Source: a virus. From it: a DNA stretch of 30,040 nt. This document shows, one piece after another, positions 3,009 to 24,001 of the stretch. How positions within the stretch are numbered: the stretch's first letter is position 1; each line of letters opens with the position of its first letter. The notes below the pieces were generated by a model, which saw only the letters and a program-made list of their open reading frames with translations, did no database searches and was not told where the DNA came from. The position numbers were made by a program, and so were the translations under genes. The DNA lies in IMG/VR virus record IMGVR_UViG_3300009000_000031, positions 1 to 30,040 of that record. One strand, given 5' to 3'.

Positions 3009-5189
3009 ATGGCTGATGCATGGAAAACCTATGCCGTTGAGTTTCGTGGTGGTCTTATAAGTAATCTGTCACCTTTGCAGCAGGGTATTAACGCACCGGG
3101 TAGCGCAAGAATACTACGTAACTTTGAACCGTCTGTTGAAGGTGGCTATCGTAGAATTGAGGGCTATGACAAATACGACAGTAATATAATTCCGCCATAT
3201 GGCGCACCAAAGGTACATGGTGGTAGTCAAAGCGGTACATCACTTACAATAGCAAATATACACCAAACACCTGTTGCGGGTGATGTGTTGACATTTACAG
3301 GTGGTGCAGTTGCAGGTGCGGCGCAGACAGGTACATCACTAGACGTAGACGGATTAGATGTAACCCCATCTGTAAATGATACATTTACTATAGAAGGTGA
3401 CACAACTGTATACACAGTAAGCGCAGCAACGGCTCTTGTAGGTACAGCATCTACTCTTACAATAACACCAGAGTTAGCAGTTACTCCTACAGACAACGCT
3501 GTTCTTAGTTTCAGATATACTATAGCCACAGGCGGCGTGAGTTTTTCTGCAGGTGTAAACAGAGCAACATTAACATTTGACCAAACAATGGTGGTCAATC
3601 CGTCAGATCAAGATGACATTACGTTTGTATCTACCGTACTAGACTACCTTGCATTAGGCGTAGCAAGCTGGGAAAGCCAAGCTATTGTTGCTAAAAATGA
3701 TGACATATACAGCACTACAGGTACTGGCTATACTAAAATAAATGTGCCTAGTTATGGTACTGTATTAGTAAATGGTGGAAGCCAAACAGGTTCGTCATTA
3801 GCGGTAGATGGTTTAGACGCTACTCCGCAACCACAAGATCAGTTTACTATTGCTGGTGTAGACTTAATATATACAGTTACAGCAGCACCTAGCGTTACTT
3901 CTGGTGCAGCAACTATAAGCATAGACCCAGCACTTAACTCTAGCCCAGCAGATAATGCCGCCATTACATTTATATCTACCAGTAGAGAAGGTGCATCACG
4001 TACCCGGTTTGCTAAATACAACTACGATGGTACGCAAAAGATTGCTATAGTTGACGGTGCCAATGCACCAGCCACATATGATGATAGTATATTTACAGTA
4101 CTAAACGATGCTCCAGCAGATGTAAAAGGCTCATCTTTTGTAAGCAATTTTAAAAATGCTTTGTTCTTTGGTAAAGGAACTAATCTTAATTTTACTGCAC
4201 CATATACAGACAATGACTTTTCAGTAGCTAATGGCGCAGGTGCAATCAACGTAGGCTCACCAATTACTGGACTAGAAGTATTTCGTGACCAATTAATTAT
4301 TTTTACTGAAGTATCTATACAAAGATTAGTCGGTAACACTATCGCAGACTTTACATTGCAGCCAGTAACAAACGATATTGGCTGTATTGAAAGTGACACC
4401 ATTCAAGAAGTCGGCGGTGACATTATGTTCTTAGCACCTGATGGTCTGCGACTGTTAAGTGCAACAGATAGAATTGGTGACTTTGGATTAGGTGTTGTAT
4501 CTAAAACTATACAGGATGACTTAACGACATTTATTTCAGCGAATACAAATTTTTCAAGTTGTGTTATTAGAGAAAAGTCGCAGTATAGAATATTAGGGTA
4601 CAACAATAACATTACGCAGGAAAATGCTCAAGGTATTATTGCTACGCAGTTTGCAGAACAGGGCGGTGCAAATATGCAGTATGCAGAAACAAGAGGCATA
4701 CGAGCATATGTAGCAGACAGTAACTACCACTTAAATACAGAAGTCGTGGTTTTTGCTAATAATGATGGCTACTTGTATCAAATGGAATCAGGAAGTGATT
4801 TTGATGGTACACCAATACTAATTACTTTTGCTACGCCGTTTATTCCTATTGAAGACCCACGTGTACGAAAAACTTTTTATAAGATATTTTTGTACACAGA
4901 TCCACAAGGTAGTGTGGCATTTGATTTAAGTTTAAAGTTAGATTTTGACGAATCAGGTATAATACAACCAGCACCTATTAACATTCAAAACACACAGGGT
5001 ACTGTTGGTTTCTTTGGACAAGGTACATTTGGTGTAACATCATATGGAGCCAAGCTAGTTAAACTATTTGAAAGTCAAGTTGTTGGTTCAGGATTTGCAG
5101 TTTCATTCTTGTTTGATTCTGCTACAGAGGCACCGCCGTTTTCCCTTGACGCATTAACGGTAGAATATGCCACTAACTCAAGAAGGTAA
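3009..5189 (+). CDS. Tail nozzle, tail tubular protein B-like (T7 gp12 type)
   Basis: This 726-residue protein is near the size of T7 gp12 (about 794) and directly follows the adaptor gene. The N-terminus (AVEFRGGLISNLSPL, then APGSARILRNFEPSVEGGYRRIEGY at about residues 29-53) is typical of nozzle and stabilisation proteins of podoviruses. The core has LEVFRDQLIIFTE near residue 420, followed by propeller-like beta stretches. Three copies of a Gly/Ser/Thr beta unit (about residues 71-100, 104-170 and 256-324) are inserted in the first half. The protein should form the hexameric tail tip that contacts fibres and internal proteins. The ATG follows AGGGG. The tail-fibre gene begins 5 bases after its stop codon. 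Confidence 0.75.
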   Translation: MADAWKTYAVEFRGGLISNLSPLQQGINAPGSARILRNFEPSVEGGYRRIEGYDKYDSNIIPPYGAPKVHGGSQSGTSLTIANIHQTPVAGDVLTFTGGAVAGAAQTGTSLDVDGLDVTPSVNDTFTIEGDTTVYTVSAATALVGTASTLTITPELAVTPTDNAVLSFRYTIATGGVSFSAGVNRATLTFDQTMVVNPSDQDDITFVSTVLDYLALGVASWESQAIVAKNDDIYSTTGTGYTKINVPSYGTVLVNGGSQTGSSLAVDGLDATPQPQDQFTIAGVDLIYTVTAAPSVTSGAATISIDPALNSSPADNAAITFISTSREGASRTRFAKYNYDGTQKIAIVDGANAPATYDDSIFTVLNDAPADVKGSSFVSNFKNALFFGKGTNLNFTAPYTDNDFSVANGAGAINVGSPITGLEVFRDQLIIFTEVSIQRLVGNTIADFTLQPVTNDIGCIESDTIQEVGGDIMFLAPDGLRLLSATDRIGDFGLGVVSKTIQDDLTTFISANTNFSSCVIREKSQYRILGYNNNITQENAQGIIATQFAEQGGANMQYAETRGIRAYVADSNYHLNTEVVVFANNDGYLYQMESGSDFDGTPILITFATPFIPIEDPRVRKTFYKIFLYTDPQGSVAFDLSLKLDFDESGIIQPAPINIQNTQGTVGFFGQGTFGVTSYGAKLVKLFESQVVGSGFAVSFLFDSATEAPPFSLDALTVEYATNSRR

Positions 5190-7631: not shown

Positions 7632-10600
7632 ATGAGTATTGTAAAAGGAAATCATGCTGGACTGGGCGGTGCGGGTGCGCCGGGTGGACCGTTAAGTGGC
7701 GGCGGCGGTGACTTCGCCTATCCTACTACTATAAATCAATCTCTGCGGTTTGATGGTTCTGCGGCATATCTAAGTAAAAATGATTTTGGAACTTCGACAG
7801 ATGTAAACAAACGAACTTTTTCAACTTGGATAAAACAGTCTAAAGTACGTTTTGCAACTTACGATAGTATTATTTGTGCTGCCGCTAGTGGTATTGAAGG
7901 TATTATTTTTGAAGATACTGAAAAAATAGGACTCATAGAAAATAGTTCCACATATTTTTCAAATGCCCTATTTAGAGATCCTACAGCTTGGTATCATGTA
8001 TTTTTTACATTTGACCATTCAGCAGGTGAGTATAAACTTTACATAAATGGTTCTTTAGAAAAAGGTGTTTCTGGAGCCACAACCAGTACAATGGATAAAC
8101 TTATCAATACTGGTCATCTAACCACAATAATGAAACGAAGTAACGCTTCTCAGTATATAGATGGTTATCTTGCTGAAACTGTTGCTCTTGATGGCTATAT
8201 TGGCGATATAAATGATTTTGCAGAAGATATTAATGGCGTTTGGGTTCCAAAGAATCTTTCTAGTGCTGGGTTTACTTATGGAGTAAATGGATTTTATTTT
8301 ACGTATAAAAGTTCGGATATAAACACCACAGGTAGTTCTAGGGATGACCCTTATGGATCAGCTACGGATCAACCAAACAATACTATTGCAGATAATTCTG
8401 GTCAGGGAAATCACTTTACTATAAATGGTATAACTGCAAACGATGTTGTGCCGGATACACCCACTAATAATTTTTATACTATGAATCCTAATATGAGGCC
8501 GGAAACAGCAACAAGTAGTAGTACTTATCCTGAAGGTGCTATAGGTTACAAAAATAGTAGTGGTAGTTATCAAAATGGTGGTTATAGCAGTGCTGCAATA
8601 CCCGTATCTGGAAAATGGTACTTTGAAGTTTATGTAAAAACCAAAGGCGGATCACCCGGAATAGGTTTTCAGACTATTGACAGAAGTATATTCTCAAGTT
8701 ACAGAGGTTATTTTGATTACAGTGGACCGGGCAGTTACTCCAATCAAATACCTTTATACAACTCTACTGGAAAAATTTATTATGGTCCTACAAGTGGTGG
8801 CAAAAACGAAGTTACAGGCCAAGACACTTGGACAACAGGAGATATTATTCAAGTTTTTGTAAATGTTGATGACAACGAAGTATATTTTGGAAAAAATAAT
8901 ACTTGGCAAAATAGTGCGGACCCAGATGCTTTAACAGGTGGCCTTTCAATGGGGCTTGCAAACCCATCAGCAGGTAGGGTTGTTCACGCTATGGCACTAG
9001 CATATAGCAGTGGAGAATATCTATTTAATTTTGGTCAGGATGATACCTTTGCTGATAATAAAACAACCGGTTCAGCAGAGGCATCTGACGCAAACGGTGT
9101 AGGCGATTTTTATTATACCCCGCCAACAGATGCGTTAGCTTTATGTACTTCCAATTTACCAACACCAGCTATTGGCCCAAATCAAGATGCTGGTTTGCAA
9201 GTTGACGATCATTTTGAAACTATTCTTTATACAGGCACAGGTGGAGAACAACACATTGGTTCGGGTGGCGTACAGCATCCTCAAGATGTCACTACTATTG
9301 CTAATAGTCTTAGGTTTGAGCCTGATGATGAGCCAGCATTATCAAAAAGCGATTTTAGCACACAGACTAATACTAAAAAAATGACAATATCTGTATGGGT
9401 CAAACGTGCTGGTCTAGGTGCTAGAACAAATATTATATTTGCAAAAAGTGGTAGTAGTGCTTTTTTACAGTTTGATTCAAGTGACAAAATAACATGGAAT
9501 GCATACAATACGGGATATACCAGCTTTACAAGTGATAGAGAATTTAAAAATACATCAGCTTGGTATCACATTGTTGCTCAAGCGGATAGTCAAGACCAAA
9601 CTGGCGCAAACATACATAAGGTCTATGTAAATGGAGAATTAATATCTGGAACAACCAGTGGATCATTTGTGCCGGATGATACAGCCACCATGTTATTGCG
9701 TAATGGTGTTACTACTTATATTGGTGATGACACTGATGGTGCCTATCACTTTGATGGCTACCTTGCTGAAATGAATGTAATTGATGGTAGTATAGTTGAT
9801 CCAACAGAATTTGGTCAATTAGGTTCTAATGGTTATTGGATTCCAAAGGCAGTGTCGGGTTTAACATTTGGCGATAATGGTTTCTATCTTGACTTCTCTG
9901 ATAACTCAACTGCTAGTGCATTGGGTACAGACAGTTCAGGTAAGGGTAATGATTTTACACCGTCTGTCAATATAGAAACAACTGACCAGATGGGTGACAG
10001 TCCTACACAGAACTTTGATACTTGGGATCCAAACAATAATTATAATTACAATGCACCAACTGAAGGAAATCTTCGTGCTTTAACTAGCGGCAATAACGGA
10101 ACGCAGCGATCTACTTTTGCTGTATCATCTGGAAAATGGTATTGGGAAGCTAGAAACGGAAGTGCAGGTTCTGGTAGTATGGTAAGACTCATTGGTATCG
10201 CTAAAAAAGATACAACTATAAGTAGTATCCCATATAATAATAGCGATTGTTATTTATACTACGATCAGGGCAATATATATAATGGCGGAGATCAGGGGTC
10301 ATACGGTGACTCTTGGAGTGCTGATGGTGACATAGTCGGTGTTGCATTTGATGCGGATAATGGTGCGCTTTGGTTTAGTAAAAACGGTACTTGGCAAAAT
10401 AGTGCAACAGCATCAGAGATAGCGGATGGCACCACAACTAACGCAGCTTTTACGGGCATTGAAGGTACTTATCTTATGATGGTTAGTAAGACAGGTGGCA
10501 CATCAAGCAATGACCCACATCATGCTAACTTTGGGCAGGATCCAACTTTTGCTGGAGATGAAACAGCACCAGCTACGGATAAAACGGACGCTAATGGTTT

Positions 10601-12005
10601 AGGTAAATTTTTCTATGATGTACCTACAGGTTTCCTCGCATTAGTAGACGACAACATTCCCAAAGAAGGTATAGATAGTCCGGATTTTGTATGGATTAAA
10701 GAAAGAGATGCTAATGTCCATCACTATTTATTTGACACAATTAGAGGACCAAAAACATATGTACAATCTAGTGTAGCCCATAGTACATCAGAAGCCACAA
10801 GAACAGATGATACTACTTTAATATCTTTTGATCCTCAAGGATTTACCATTGGCTCTAATGGTGATGTTAATGGAAGTGGTGATTCATATGTAGCTTGGAT
10901 GTGGAAAGCAGGTGGGCCTTCTCCTACACGAAATTATACTGTAAAAGTTGATGCAGATGCTAGTGATGGCGATCAAAATAAATATTTGTTTGATGGAAAT
11001 ACAACTATATATGCTCCTACATTAACACTACAACCGGGTGGTACATATACATTTGACCAATCAGACAGTAGTAATACAGGTCATCCACTTCGTTTTTCTA
11101 CTACATCAGACGGTACTCATGGCGGTGGCTCAGAATATACAACGGGTGTAACAACAGCAGGTACGCCGGGTACTGATGGTACAACAACTATAGTTCTTGC
11201 AAGCGATGCACCAACTTTATACTATTATTGTTCATCACATAGTGGTATGGGTGGACAAGTTACTCCTAATACAAAACGTGGTTCAAGTAATTTTAAAGGC
11301 GGTAAAGAATCAATTGTAACTGCTAATCAAACTGCTGGATTTAGTATAGCTAGTTATGTTGGAGATCATACTTCTGCTGGTCTAAGCGGTAGACCTGTTG
11401 GTCATGGATTATTAAAACAGACAGAATTTACGCTTATTAAAGATCGTGGTAATAATAGTAATAACGACAACTGGAGCCTGTCATCAACACATATAGGTGA
11501 TGATTATATATATTGGACTAGCATGAATCCAACTGGAACTGCACAAGTATACCCAACGTCAGGAAATGATGAAACTGTAACTGTTGGCATTTCTGGTACA
11601 ACTGCCGCAACTAGAACAAATAACGAAGATAATCACAATTTTATTATGTATAATTTTCATTCAGTGGATGGTTATTGTAAGCTGGGAAGTTATGAAGGAA
11701 ATGGTATTGCGGAAGGTCCTTTTGTTTACACTGGGTTTAAGCCAAGATGGGTTATGATAAAATGTTACGAAGGAACAGGTAACTGGTTTATATTAGATTC
11801 AGTAAGAAGTCCTATCAATGAAATGGATGATAGACTTGATGCTGACAACTATAATGATGAAGACACATCAAATGCAGACATAGACTTTTTAAGCAATGGG
11901 TTTCAGATACGCACCGCTTCAACAGCAGGTATAAATCAAAACAATAATGGGCATTTCTATATTGCATTTGCTGAATGTCCATTTAAATATTCTAATTCTA
12001 ACTAG
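7632..12005 (+). CDS. Large tail adhesin with two LamG-SPRY units, a cupredoxin-like domain and DUF7483-like regions
   Basis: This 1457-residue protein is a probable receptor-binding or adhesion protein on the virion surface. Domains in order: a Gly-rich N-terminus; LamG-like lectin fold 1 (about 37-195, with WYHVFFTF and GYLAETVALDG); SPRY-like fold 1 (about 325-475, with SGKWYFEVYV and FGKNNTWQNSA); LamG-like 2 (about 555-735); SPRY-like 2 (about 833-970); a DUF7483-like segment (about 1014-1094); a cupredoxin-like domain (about 1100-1213); and a DUF7483-like C-terminus. The cupredoxin part has H1151, C1200, H1203 and M1206 in type 1 copper-site order. The ATG lacks a clear ribosome-binding site, since GAAGG lies about 15 bases upstream. 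The gene is very A/T-rich. Carbohydrate binding is inferred from the folds; domain edges are approximate. Confidence 0.72.
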   Translation: MSIVKGNHAGLGGAGAPGGPLSGGGGDFAYPTTINQSLRFDGSAAYLSKNDFGTSTDVNKRTFSTWIKQSKVRFATYDSIICAAASGIEGIIFEDTEKIGLIENSSTYFSNALFRDPTAWYHVFFTFDHSAGEYKLYINGSLEKGVSGATTSTMDKLINTGHLTTIMKRSNASQYIDGYLAETVALDGYIGDINDFAEDINGVWVPKNLSSAGFTYGVNGFYFTYKSSDINTTGSSRDDPYGSATDQPNNTIADNSGQGNHFTINGITANDVVPDTPTNNFYTMNPNMRPETATSSSTYPEGAIGYKNSSGSYQNGGYSSAAIPVSGKWYFEVYVKTKGGSPGIGFQTIDRSIFSSYRGYFDYSGPGSYSNQIPLYNSTGKIYYGPTSGGKNEVTGQDTWTTGDIIQVFVNVDDNEVYFGKNNTWQNSADPDALTGGLSMGLANPSAGRVVHAMALAYSSGEYLFNFGQDDTFADNKTTGSAEASDANGVGDFYYTPPTDALALCTSNLPTPAIGPNQDAGLQVDDHFETILYTGTGGEQHIGSGGVQHPQDVTTIANSLRFEPDDEPALSKSDFSTQTNTKKMTISVWVKRAGLGARTNIIFAKSGSSAFLQFDSSDKITWNAYNTGYTSFTSDREFKNTSAWYHIVAQADSQDQTGANIHKVYVNGELISGTTSGSFVPDDTATMLLRNGVTTYIGDDTDGAYHFDGYLAEMNVIDGSIVDPTEFGQLGSNGYWIPKAVSGLTFGDNGFYLDFSDNSTASALGTDSSGKGNDFTPSVNIETTDQMGDSPTQNFDTWDPNNNYNYNAPTEGNLRALTSGNNGTQRSTFAVSSGKWYWEARNGSAGSGSMVRLIGIAKKDTTISSIPYNNSDCYLYYDQGNIYNGGDQGSYGDSWSADGDIVGVAFDADNGALWFSKNGTWQNSATASEIADGTTTNAAFTGIEGTYLMMVSKTGGTSSNDPHHANFGQDPTFAGDETAPATDKTDANGLGKFFYDVPTGFLALVDDNIPKEGIDSPDFVWIKERDANVHHYLFDTIRGPKTYVQSSVAHSTSEATRTDDTTLISFDPQGFTIGSNGDVNGSGDSYVAWMWKAGGPSPTRNYTVKVDADASDGDQNKYLFDGNTTIYAPTLTLQPGGTYTFDQSDSSNTGHPLRFSTTSDGTHGGGSEYTTGVTTAGTPGTDGTTTIVLASDAPTLYYYCSSHSGMGGQVTPNTKRGSSNFKGGKESIVTANQTAGFSIASYVGDHTSAGLSGRPVGHGLLKQTEFTLIKDRGNNSNNDNWSLSSTHIGDDYIYWTSMNPTGTAQVYPTSGNDETVTVGISGTTAATRTNNEDNHNFIMYNFHSVDGYCKLGSYEGNGIAEGPFVYTGFKPRWVMIKCYEGTGNWFILDSVRSPINEMDDRLDADNYNDEDTSNADIDFLSNGFQIRTASTAGINQNNNGHFYIAFAECPFKYSNSN

Positions 12006-21970: not shown

Positions 21971-22076
21971 AGGATTTCTCCTTTTCTTTTTGTTTCAACC
22001 ACTCTTCTCTGCAAGGGTGATGAACAGGTGGGTTATGTTGCACCCACCCGTCACCTGTCTTCCATACTACACTCAT
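21942..22076 (-). CDS. Putative 44-residue protein filling the nrdJ downstream gap
   Basis: The frame starts at an ATG overlapping the nrdJ stop codon (ATGA), runs through the roughly 100-base gap, and ends 29 bases inside the GIY-YIG gene in another frame. It encodes MSVVWKTGDGWVQHNPPVHH, then PCREEWLKQKEKEK and an acidic tail. The N-terminal half has three His and one Cys in 9 residues, a possible metal-binding cluster, and two Trp, unlike random sequence. The gene is otherwise unannotatable and I do not recognise a family. Context suggests co-translation with nrdJ. Function unknown. Confidence 0.55.
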   Translation of the reverse strand: MSVVWKTGDGWVQHNPPVHHPCREEWLKQKEKEKSYDEKRTEDS

Positions 22077-24001
22077 GCTGCGTTCAAGTCAACTACTTCA
22101 CAAACGCCAGCAGTACAAGCCAACTCACGTCCACCTGATGTAGTATCTTCCTTCTCAAACTCCTGAAGCATAGACCAGTCTACGTTCTTTGGCATCTTAG
22201 CTGCCCACTTTTTGTATGTGTCAGCATCAATGTCCTGATAAGGTGCTTGCTGATATGTATGCTCACTGAATGGCAGGAAGCTGATACCGCTGACCTCATC
22301 AAAGTGTTCGTAGACCCACGCACCTACAGCCATCCATTCATTCTCTTTTACAGAGATGGTGACTGATGGTTTGTGTTCACACCAGTGACGCTGATAAGTC
22401 AGCCACAGTTCAAGCTGTTCAATGGCTGTCATACCTGTGCGTGTCACTGCGTTCTTAGGTGACTTCATAGGGAAGCTAAACACTGTCGTTGAGTCGGGCT
22501 TCATTACGTCAGGTTCAGCAGGTATATCCTGTGAAATCAAGAACTGTGTCAATGGGTCTTTGTTATCCCCACGGACAGTGCGAATGTAGTATGGGTTGTG
22601 TCTGGCGTGAATGCCACTAGCACTATCTACAAGCTGCGATACCGTACCACTAGGCTTGACACAAGTGATAGCAGCAGACTGCTCAATGCCAAGTTCAAAT
22701 GCCATAGCTGCATTAGCTTCAATGGCAGTGACACGCAGCATCTCAAGTGTATCTGCTACTTGCTTGCCCTTGTGTAGTTCAGCACAATCCATGATGCCTG
22801 TCAGGGATACACCAAGCAAGCGTTCCTGCTCTGTATTCTGCCGCCAAATCTTACGTAGGTAACGAAAGTTTGTCAGTGTAGATTGGAATGTACCTAGAAT
22901 AGTGGCAAGGCGTACCTTCTCTTTCAATGATGCCAGCGTGTCCGTTTCACGTGCAACAACCTCTGACAAGTTACAGAACTGGTATGGACGTAGGATAATC
23001 TCAGAGCAAGGGTTGCAACCAAAGTCTTGGTCAGCATCACGCCTACCATTCTTAGCTGCTTGCTTCCTAGCTGACTCACGATTGAAGATACCACGCTCAC
23101 CTGACTTACTATCATACAACGACAACCACTCACGCATGAATGTACCCATCTCTGGCTTCTGCTTGTACGCTACAGAGTTATTAGCCAGCGCACGTTGACC
23201 TTCATTCTCCCACCACTGACCTGACTTGGCATGAGCCATCTGGTCATCATTAAGATTAGACAATGAAATCAATGCGCTACGGCGTACGCCACCAACCACA
23301 ACAACTTCACCAATCTTGCACATGATGTCGTGACACTCGATTGGATACAGTCTGCGACCTGCTGCACCTTTGAACTTCTGTATGACAAACTCAAATAGTT
23401 CAACTAAAGGCTGTGGGCCTGATGCACGACCGCCGAATGTCTTCAGTCTTGCACCTGCAGGGCGAACCTCACTCACATCAAACTTTGGAACTTGTCCAGC
23501 ATATAGCATGAAGATAAGTTCCTTCAGTGACTTTGCCCAACCGGGGCGGCTGTCACCTACCTTGATTACTGTGTCTGTCTCGTGAAACTCTTCATTTACC
23601 ATAGGCAGCTTCTCAATGTTATGACGTTCTACACTGAAGCCTACACCTGTACCACACATGAGGATGTACATAGTCTCATCAAACGCACGTGGGCTATCCA
23701 CTGGTACGTATGAACAGTTGTATCCACCCACATGGCAGCGGTCTAGTGCTGGTCCTGCAGTCATCAACGCCCTCATGCTAGGCATGATAGACTGATTGAG
23801 TACGGCTTCTTCTAGTTCCGCCCTCAGTGTATCTGGTAGCTTGTAACCGCAATAGCTACCCAAGTGATTAGCCATATAATCAAAATATCTTGTAACTGTT
23901 TCACCCCATGTCTCCCTTCGTTGCTCATCTTCTTTCCATCTTGCATAGCGTGAAAGGGCTATGAAGTTCTGGTAGTCTGTTGGTAATGTATTGCTAATCA
24001 T
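22073..24001 (-). CDS. nrdJ: Adenosylcobalamin-dependent ribonucleotide reductase (class II, monomeric)
   Basis: This enzyme reduces ribonucleoside triphosphates to deoxyribonucleotides by a B12-generated thiyl radical, feeding phage DNA synthesis. The 642 residues hold all key cysteines: C96 in GGYNCSY and C343 in QFCNLSE are the likely redox pair, C332 in NPCSE is the radical cysteine with E334, and C629 and C634 near the C-terminus form the CxxxxC pair that re-reduces the active site. PSGTVSQLVD near residue 455 is a phosphate-binding loop. The layout resembles the Lactobacillus leichmannii enzyme (about 739), though shorter. No separate small subunit is needed or present. GGAG lies before the ATG. 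B12 dependence implies that the host makes or imports cobalamin. Confidence 0.92.
   Translation of the reverse strand: MISNTLPTDYQNFIALSRYARWKEDEQRRETWGETVTRYFDYMANHLGSYCGYKLPDTLRAELEEAVLNQSIMPSMRALMTAGPALDRCHVGGYNCSYVPVDSPRAFDETMYILMCGTGVGFSVERHNIEKLPMVNEEFHETDTVIKVGDSRPGWAKSLKELIFMLYAGQVPKFDVSEVRPAGARLKTFGGRASGPQPLVELFEFVIQKFKGAAGRRLYPIECHDIMCKIGEVVVVGGVRRSALISLSNLNDDQMAHAKSGQWWENEGQRALANNSVAYKQKPEMGTFMREWLSLYDSKSGERGIFNRESARKQAAKNGRRDADQDFGCNPCSEIILRPYQFCNLSEVVARETDTLASLKEKVRLATILGTFQSTLTNFRYLRKIWRQNTEQERLLGVSLTGIMDCAELHKGKQVADTLEMLRVTAIEANAAMAFELGIEQSAAITCVKPSGTVSQLVDSASGIHARHNPYYIRTVRGDNKDPLTQFLISQDIPAEPDVMKPDSTTVFSFPMKSPKNAVTRTGMTAIEQLELWLTYQRHWCEHKPSVTISVKENEWMAVGAWVYEHFDEVSGISFLPFSEHTYQQAPYQDIDADTYKKWAAKMPKNVDWSMLQEFEKEDTTSGGRELACTAGVCEVVDLNAA

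Follow-up and report, generated by a model that had tools for sequence, protein, structure and literature searches.

The question raised by this locus is what a stretch resembling the copper site of amicyanin is doing in a predicted phage tail protein. By the window we mean the whole stretch of DNA that was analysed, 30,040 nucleotides of the IMG/VR record IMGVR_UViG_3300009000_000031. Comparison and prediction show that the stretch is a modular insertion with a cupredoxin fold, and that its four putative ligands are strongly conserved at the protein level. Most probably this modular domain of the tail binds metal and serves attachment to the host surface; copper loading and attachment are the parts that we infer.

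The ORF holding the domain (Table 1) matches two PHROG families, 19943 (virion structural) and 24898 (tail fibre). It is surrounded by a head and tail module, which includes the major capsid protein at 634, an SU10-type adaptor at 2271 and a protein at 3009 with distal-tail and amidase matches. The region of this ORF is identical in two other assemblies, thus the domain-bearing gene region cannot stem from faulty assembly of this contig. A gene for a B12-dependent (class II) ribonucleotide reductase was also noticed in the window (22073-24001, minus strand), in a gene block of opposite orientation.

Table 1. Coordinates of the tail protein gene, its predicted domains and the putative copper ligands in the window
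Feature	Position	Strand	Evidence
Large tail/adhesin structural protein, 1457 aa (LamG, SPRY, DUF7483 and inserted cupredoxin)	7632..12005	+	ORF list, Pfam, PHROG
Laminin_G_3 / concanavalin-like lectin domain, best stretch residues 578-719	9363..9788	+	Pfam PF13385, E 5e-23
SPRY domain, best stretch residues 835-926	10134..10409	+	Pfam PF00622, E 4e-14
DUF7483 N-terminal part, upstream flank of the insertion, limits approximate	10620..10925	+	alignment; two DUF7483 stretches (Pfam)
Predicted cupredoxin domain, residues about 1100-1213	10929..11270	+	profile searches, alignments, structure prediction
His1151, predicted first copper ligand	11082..11084	+	codon CAT; invariant in 82-sequence alignment
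Cys1200, predicted copper ligand	11229..11231	+	codon TGT; invariant in 82-sequence alignment
His1203, predicted copper ligand	11238..11240	+	codon CAT; invariant in 82-sequence alignment
Met1206, predicted axial copper ligand	11247..11249	+	codon ATG; invariant in 82-sequence alignment
DUF7483 C-terminal part, residues 1216-1450	11277..11981	+	Pfam PF24299, profile positions 107-330

An earlier, sequence-only reading had placed the domain at 10930-11271. The domain is real, but position 10930 is out of frame; in the frame of the ORF it starts at 10929 (or 10935) and ends at 11270. The same reading was right in regarding the domain as an insertion between two DUF7483 segments. Pfam matches DUF7483 twice in the protein, on either side of the cupredoxin domain, and alignment with the homologues from roseophage CRP-406 and methylophage MEP301, tail proteins that have no such domain, joins the two flanks directly. 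Cyanophage S-B68 has the cupredoxin domain at the same place of DUF7483, thus the module is gained or lost as a unit. These alignments show the stretch to be a separate domain, inserted as a module into DUF7483.

The AF2 model of the window domain, computed from an 82-row alignment (pLDDT 90.6, pTM 0.84), is a beta-sandwich, all beta save for one short helical turn. Its best PDB match in Foldseek was a three-domain CuNIR (2dv6, E 1.3e-3, probability 1.00), closely followed by antibody light chains; no match fell below E 1e-3, and the TM-scores were between 0.5 and 0.6. When a sister domain of the P-HM2 type was modelled from its own alignment (pLDDT 96.3), all 50 of the 50 PDB matches listed were cupredoxin-fold proteins, the best at 2.3e-5. 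By prediction, the domain has the Greek-key beta-sandwich of the cupredoxin superfamily, weakly so from the window model alone, and the proposed similarity to cupredoxins was borne out at this level.

Profile comparisons pointed in the same direction. The PDB sequences matched by the profile were almost exclusively cupredoxins (CuNIR 5.5e-6, pseudoazurin 4.3e-3, plastocyanins 6e-3), and hhalign detected a relation to pseudoazurins (91.9%, 7e-7) but none to azurin-like proteins (0.2%), a cadherin-like control yielding 0.1%. A PDB search with the single sequence of the window domain gave nothing useful, and the match in NCBIfam was a weak one to plastocyanin (E 0.13). Against the Pfam family Copper-bind (PF00127) the window domain scored 15.3 bits, which is below the curated cut-off of 21.2, and this was the only place in the record where Copper-bind matched. 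A related domain from Flavobacteriaceae (L440) passes the same cut-off with 26.1 bits, and the relative in L400 scored 20.2 bits alone and 24 in the genome search. Read from the sequence, the ligand arrangement is that of a type 1 copper site, with a His upstream, then Cys, His and Met placed by prediction between the last two strands. We are highly confident that this is a cupredoxin fold with an intact ligand set, the fold and the ligand site being well supported by prediction and comparison.

The four residues singled out beforehand, H1151, C1200, H1203 and M1206, turned out to be exactly the invariant columns, and the only ones, in an alignment of 82 diverse IMG/VR sequences with identities down to 25%. 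The chance that four given columns coincide with the four invariant ones of 111 would be about 1 in six million under the assumption of equivalent columns, an assumption that does not hold. An alignment of 20 sequences that includes isolate phages has five invariant columns, the four ligands and one core Phe. All four ligands (HCHM) are present in 388 of the 396 full-length copies; the remaining eight are six HCHK, one HCYM and one that is cut off. The C-x2-H-x2-M spacing, predicted to match the seven-residue ligand loop of amicyanin, was confirmed in 393/396 copies. Far from varying freely, the ligand positions hold the family's most conserved residues. The ligand codons are mixed (CAT 194, CAC 121; TGT 211, TGC 104), and since synonymous codons are used freely, the constraint acts on the protein.

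The full-length copies were picked by profile coverage, and the pattern used in one scan contained the Cys. Selection bias was therefore possible in this set, and two checks were made. When the N-terminal region of gp9 served as the only query, so that the domain itself played no part in the retrieval, the C-terminal domains at the loci obtained were intact in 21 of 21 cases. The second check concerned the partial copies that had been removed by the coverage filter. Most of the distinct ones were without the C-x2-H-x2-M loop, and these loop-less copies occupy specific second positions in Kyanoviridae virion proteins, in which the first copy is often intact. The loop is replaced by LYYYDQGA, LYYFNSIN, LYYYCASGPGHENEGG and similar sequences; the first two kinds have none of Cys, His and Met, and the LYYYCASGPGHENEGG kind keeps a Cys and a displaced His but no Met. 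The degenerate cyanomyophage paralogues lose the ligand loop as a unit. The fold survives without the loop in these copies, therefore retention of the ligands elsewhere points to a metal site.

IMG/VR contains at least 600 stretches matching the pattern, and of the 600 examined 585 encode relatives, in agreement with the earlier remark that similar stretches are common in marine virome proteins. Because of this proportion, and because 46 records of isolate phages match the domain at E<=1e-3, C-x2-H-x2-M cannot be regarded as a chance motif. The isolates carrying the domain include Kyanoviridae cyanophages, pelagiphages and methylophages, some with several matches per genome (four in P-SSM2, four in S-CAM4 and five in S-RIM2, some of them partial). 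On phages the domain is found in tail fibres and baseplate wedge proteins, and T4 gp9-like fibre connectors have it at their C-terminus; the PHROG families of these proteins are tail fibre and baseplate families. Examples of cyanophage gp9-like connectors ending in a cupredoxin domain are L096:1-1221, L094:853-2028 and L320:1987-3282. In cyanomyophage virion proteins of about 1355-1370 aa (L182-L254, e.g. L093:4744-5022, L184) we also observed a second, split cupredoxin-like copy, which has a long insert and no copper loop.

The domain is not confined to phages. A scan of genome contigs, for which the query was a closer alignment of the family and not the 82-row one, identified 74 loci in marine bacterial and archaeal assemblies. 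Many of the cellular ORFs start with a signal and a lipobox-like sequence, among them MGII archaeal proteins that have collagen repeats and the SAR86 protein in L447, whose gene adjoins a dehydrogenase gene. Short SAR86 lipoproteins of about 170-190 aa, which consist mostly of the domain, are found at L447:1438-1959 (minus strand), L363:4779-5342 and L386:4863-5363. In the SAR86 order (the order of G005) 77 of 151 genomes matched at E<=1e-3 and 43 even reached values below 1e-15; some of the weak matches may be ordinary cupredoxins. Only one of 147 genomes matched in the order Pelagibacterales (the order of G012), thus the Pelagibacter loci are more likely to be phage. In a FastTree tree of the domain, calculated from 92 positions and without support values, phage and cellular copies were mixed. 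Judged by these sequence comparisons, the window domain belongs to one large family common to marine phages and to predicted exported lipoproteins of marine bacteria and archaea.

It is useful to compare the domain with known cupredoxins. Amicyanin (Paracoccus, PDB 1aac) and plastocyanin (PF00127) resemble it in the predicted Greek-key fold and in profile and fold matches, and amicyanin also in the upstream His followed by a C-x2-H-x2-M loop of the same length between the last strands. They are, however, stand-alone exported electron carriers, amicyanin serving methylamine dehydrogenase as a single exported protein, whereas the window domain is one part of a 1457-aa phage structural protein and scores below the Pfam cut-off. 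The cupredoxin domains of CuNIR (2dv6, 6tfo, 6hbe) gave the best profile and fold matches, they are likewise fused modules, and the 6hbe loop YVYICSIHPYMKG aligns to the ligand loop of the window domain, but the catalytic nitrite reductase domains are absent from the phage protein. The exported cupredoxin lipoproteins of SAR86, other marine bacteria and MGII archaea (L363, L447, L374, L400) belong to the same family by profile and have the same four ligands; they differ in their lipobox-like N termini, their cellular gene neighbours and their expected location at the cell surface or in the periplasm, the window domain being on the virion. Cyanophages encode plastocyanin (petE) as an auxiliary photosynthesis gene. 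This is also a cupredoxin of marine phages, but a stand-alone one for host electron transport and not a virion domain, and it did not come up in the present searches.

We propose that a cupredoxin with His, Cys, His and Met on a loop of amicyanin length was inserted ready-made into the DUF7483 region of a tail adhesin. From what is known of cupredoxins the domain would bind metal, preferably copper. Free copper is scarce in the cytoplasm, in which tail proteins mature, and copper would probably be loaded after the particle has left this copper-poor compartment, the site possibly being filled with zinc until then. The bound metal would stiffen the ligand loop. In known cupredoxins the ligand loop is part of the face that docks to partners, and on the tail it could become a docking face for attachment. 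The partners may be surface or periplasmic proteins which normally meet the cupredoxin lipoproteins or copper-handling proteins of the host; nothing in the sequence names a host partner. A role in attachment is suggested by the tail fibre and baseplate PHROG families, the position at the ends of gp9-like connectors, the LamG and SPRY domains alongside and the lipoprotein relatives. Taken as a whole, a metal-binding type 1 cupredoxin module in a tail adhesin, with a docking face that serves attachment, seems to us a probable reading. As to its parts, we predict with considerable confidence that the domain will bind copper in vitro, and regard the role in attachment as about evenly balanced between true and false.

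Among the alternatives, the one that survives best is that in the virion the same cupredoxin binds not copper but another metal, zinc taken up in the cytoplasm or iron, which is only a structural staple. Cupredoxins made in the bacterial cytoplasm can indeed take up zinc. A precedent in marine phage tails is iron bound at the HxH motifs of tail fibres, the subject of the Trojan or Ferrojan horse hypothesis (PMC11705849). Those fibres are similar to our case in having a proposed metal site on a marine phage tail fibre, but they are trimeric and coordinate iron octahedrally (PMC11705849), whereas the window domain would have a folded Cys-Met-His2 site and no HxH motif is found in its sequence. 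The soft, amicyanin-type Cys-Met-His2 ligands are a copper set, and we consider a non-copper staple unlikely.

Type 1 copper proteins mostly carry electrons, and the domain could accordingly be an electron carrier or redox device, such as a redox-triggered fibre switch or a protection against oxidants, rather than a part of the attachment apparatus. This would also explain the conservation of the ligands. The search of the same protein, however, revealed neither a redox partner nor a catalytic domain, and the LamG and SPRY binding domains alongside and the position at fibre connectors speak against such a function, which we find rather improbable. A plain beta-sandwich spacer, metal-free and with ligands that are a relic of folding constraints, appears improbable to a similar or slightly greater degree: the loop-less Kyanoviridae copies evidently still work as structure, yet although the fold can do without the ligands, nearly all full-length copies keep the four at exact spacing, and so did every copy fetched independently of the domain. 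The last alternative, an Ig-like domain such as phage virions commonly carry, in which YYYC would be the YYC motif of an Ig V-set, can be regarded as nearly excluded: the PDB matches do include Fab light chains and public entries for the P-HM2 and MED4-213 relatives mention Ig domains, but Pfam detects no Ig family (E<=10), the sister model had cupredoxin-fold proteins throughout its listed matches, a C-x2-H-x2-M loop has no place in Ig, and the single Cys of the domain means that there is no Ig intersheet disulphide.

The recurrence of the domain on tail and baseplate proteins of many marine phages and on surface lipoproteins of marine bacteria suggests that a metal site common to cellular copper proteins is employed by phage tails. 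The cupredoxin superfamily has long been known; the phage-tail context and the shared marine family are new. Blue-copper domains are familiar as exported electron carriers and as parts of oxidases, and the open-access literature searched, with few subscription journals covered, yielded no description of cupredoxins on phage tails or baseplates; what comes closest is the proposal of iron at the HxH motifs of tail fibres (PMC11705849). A metal-competent version on marine phage fibres and baseplates would bring copper into the chemistry by which phages attach, and would make phages participants in the binding of copper in the sea, surface lipoprotein relatives being present in about half of the SAR86-order genomes searched. 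A protein consisting of the domain is small enough for immediate laboratory testing. A more far-reaching and, in our estimate, doubtful version is that copper-loaded cupredoxins on the fibres and baseplates of marine phages, in several copies per genome, dock on the host partners of the shared surface cupredoxin lipoproteins, with transfer of the domain between cells and phages; this would be the equivalent, for copper, of the Trojan-horse idea for iron.

A few observations were made in passing. Two predicted giant virus proteins named beta-sandwich protein, A0A481Z6J5 and A0A481YVH3 (Pithovirus LCPAC302, Marseillevirus LCMAC201), match the fold. The Epulopiscium single-cell assembly L393 (LJDB01000095.1) contains a marine-phage-like protein with the domain, possibly as a contamination. 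In the Pelagibacter phages Hodr and Baldr the locus tags are apparently swapped between L085 (OQ414636.1) and L101 (OQ414635.1).
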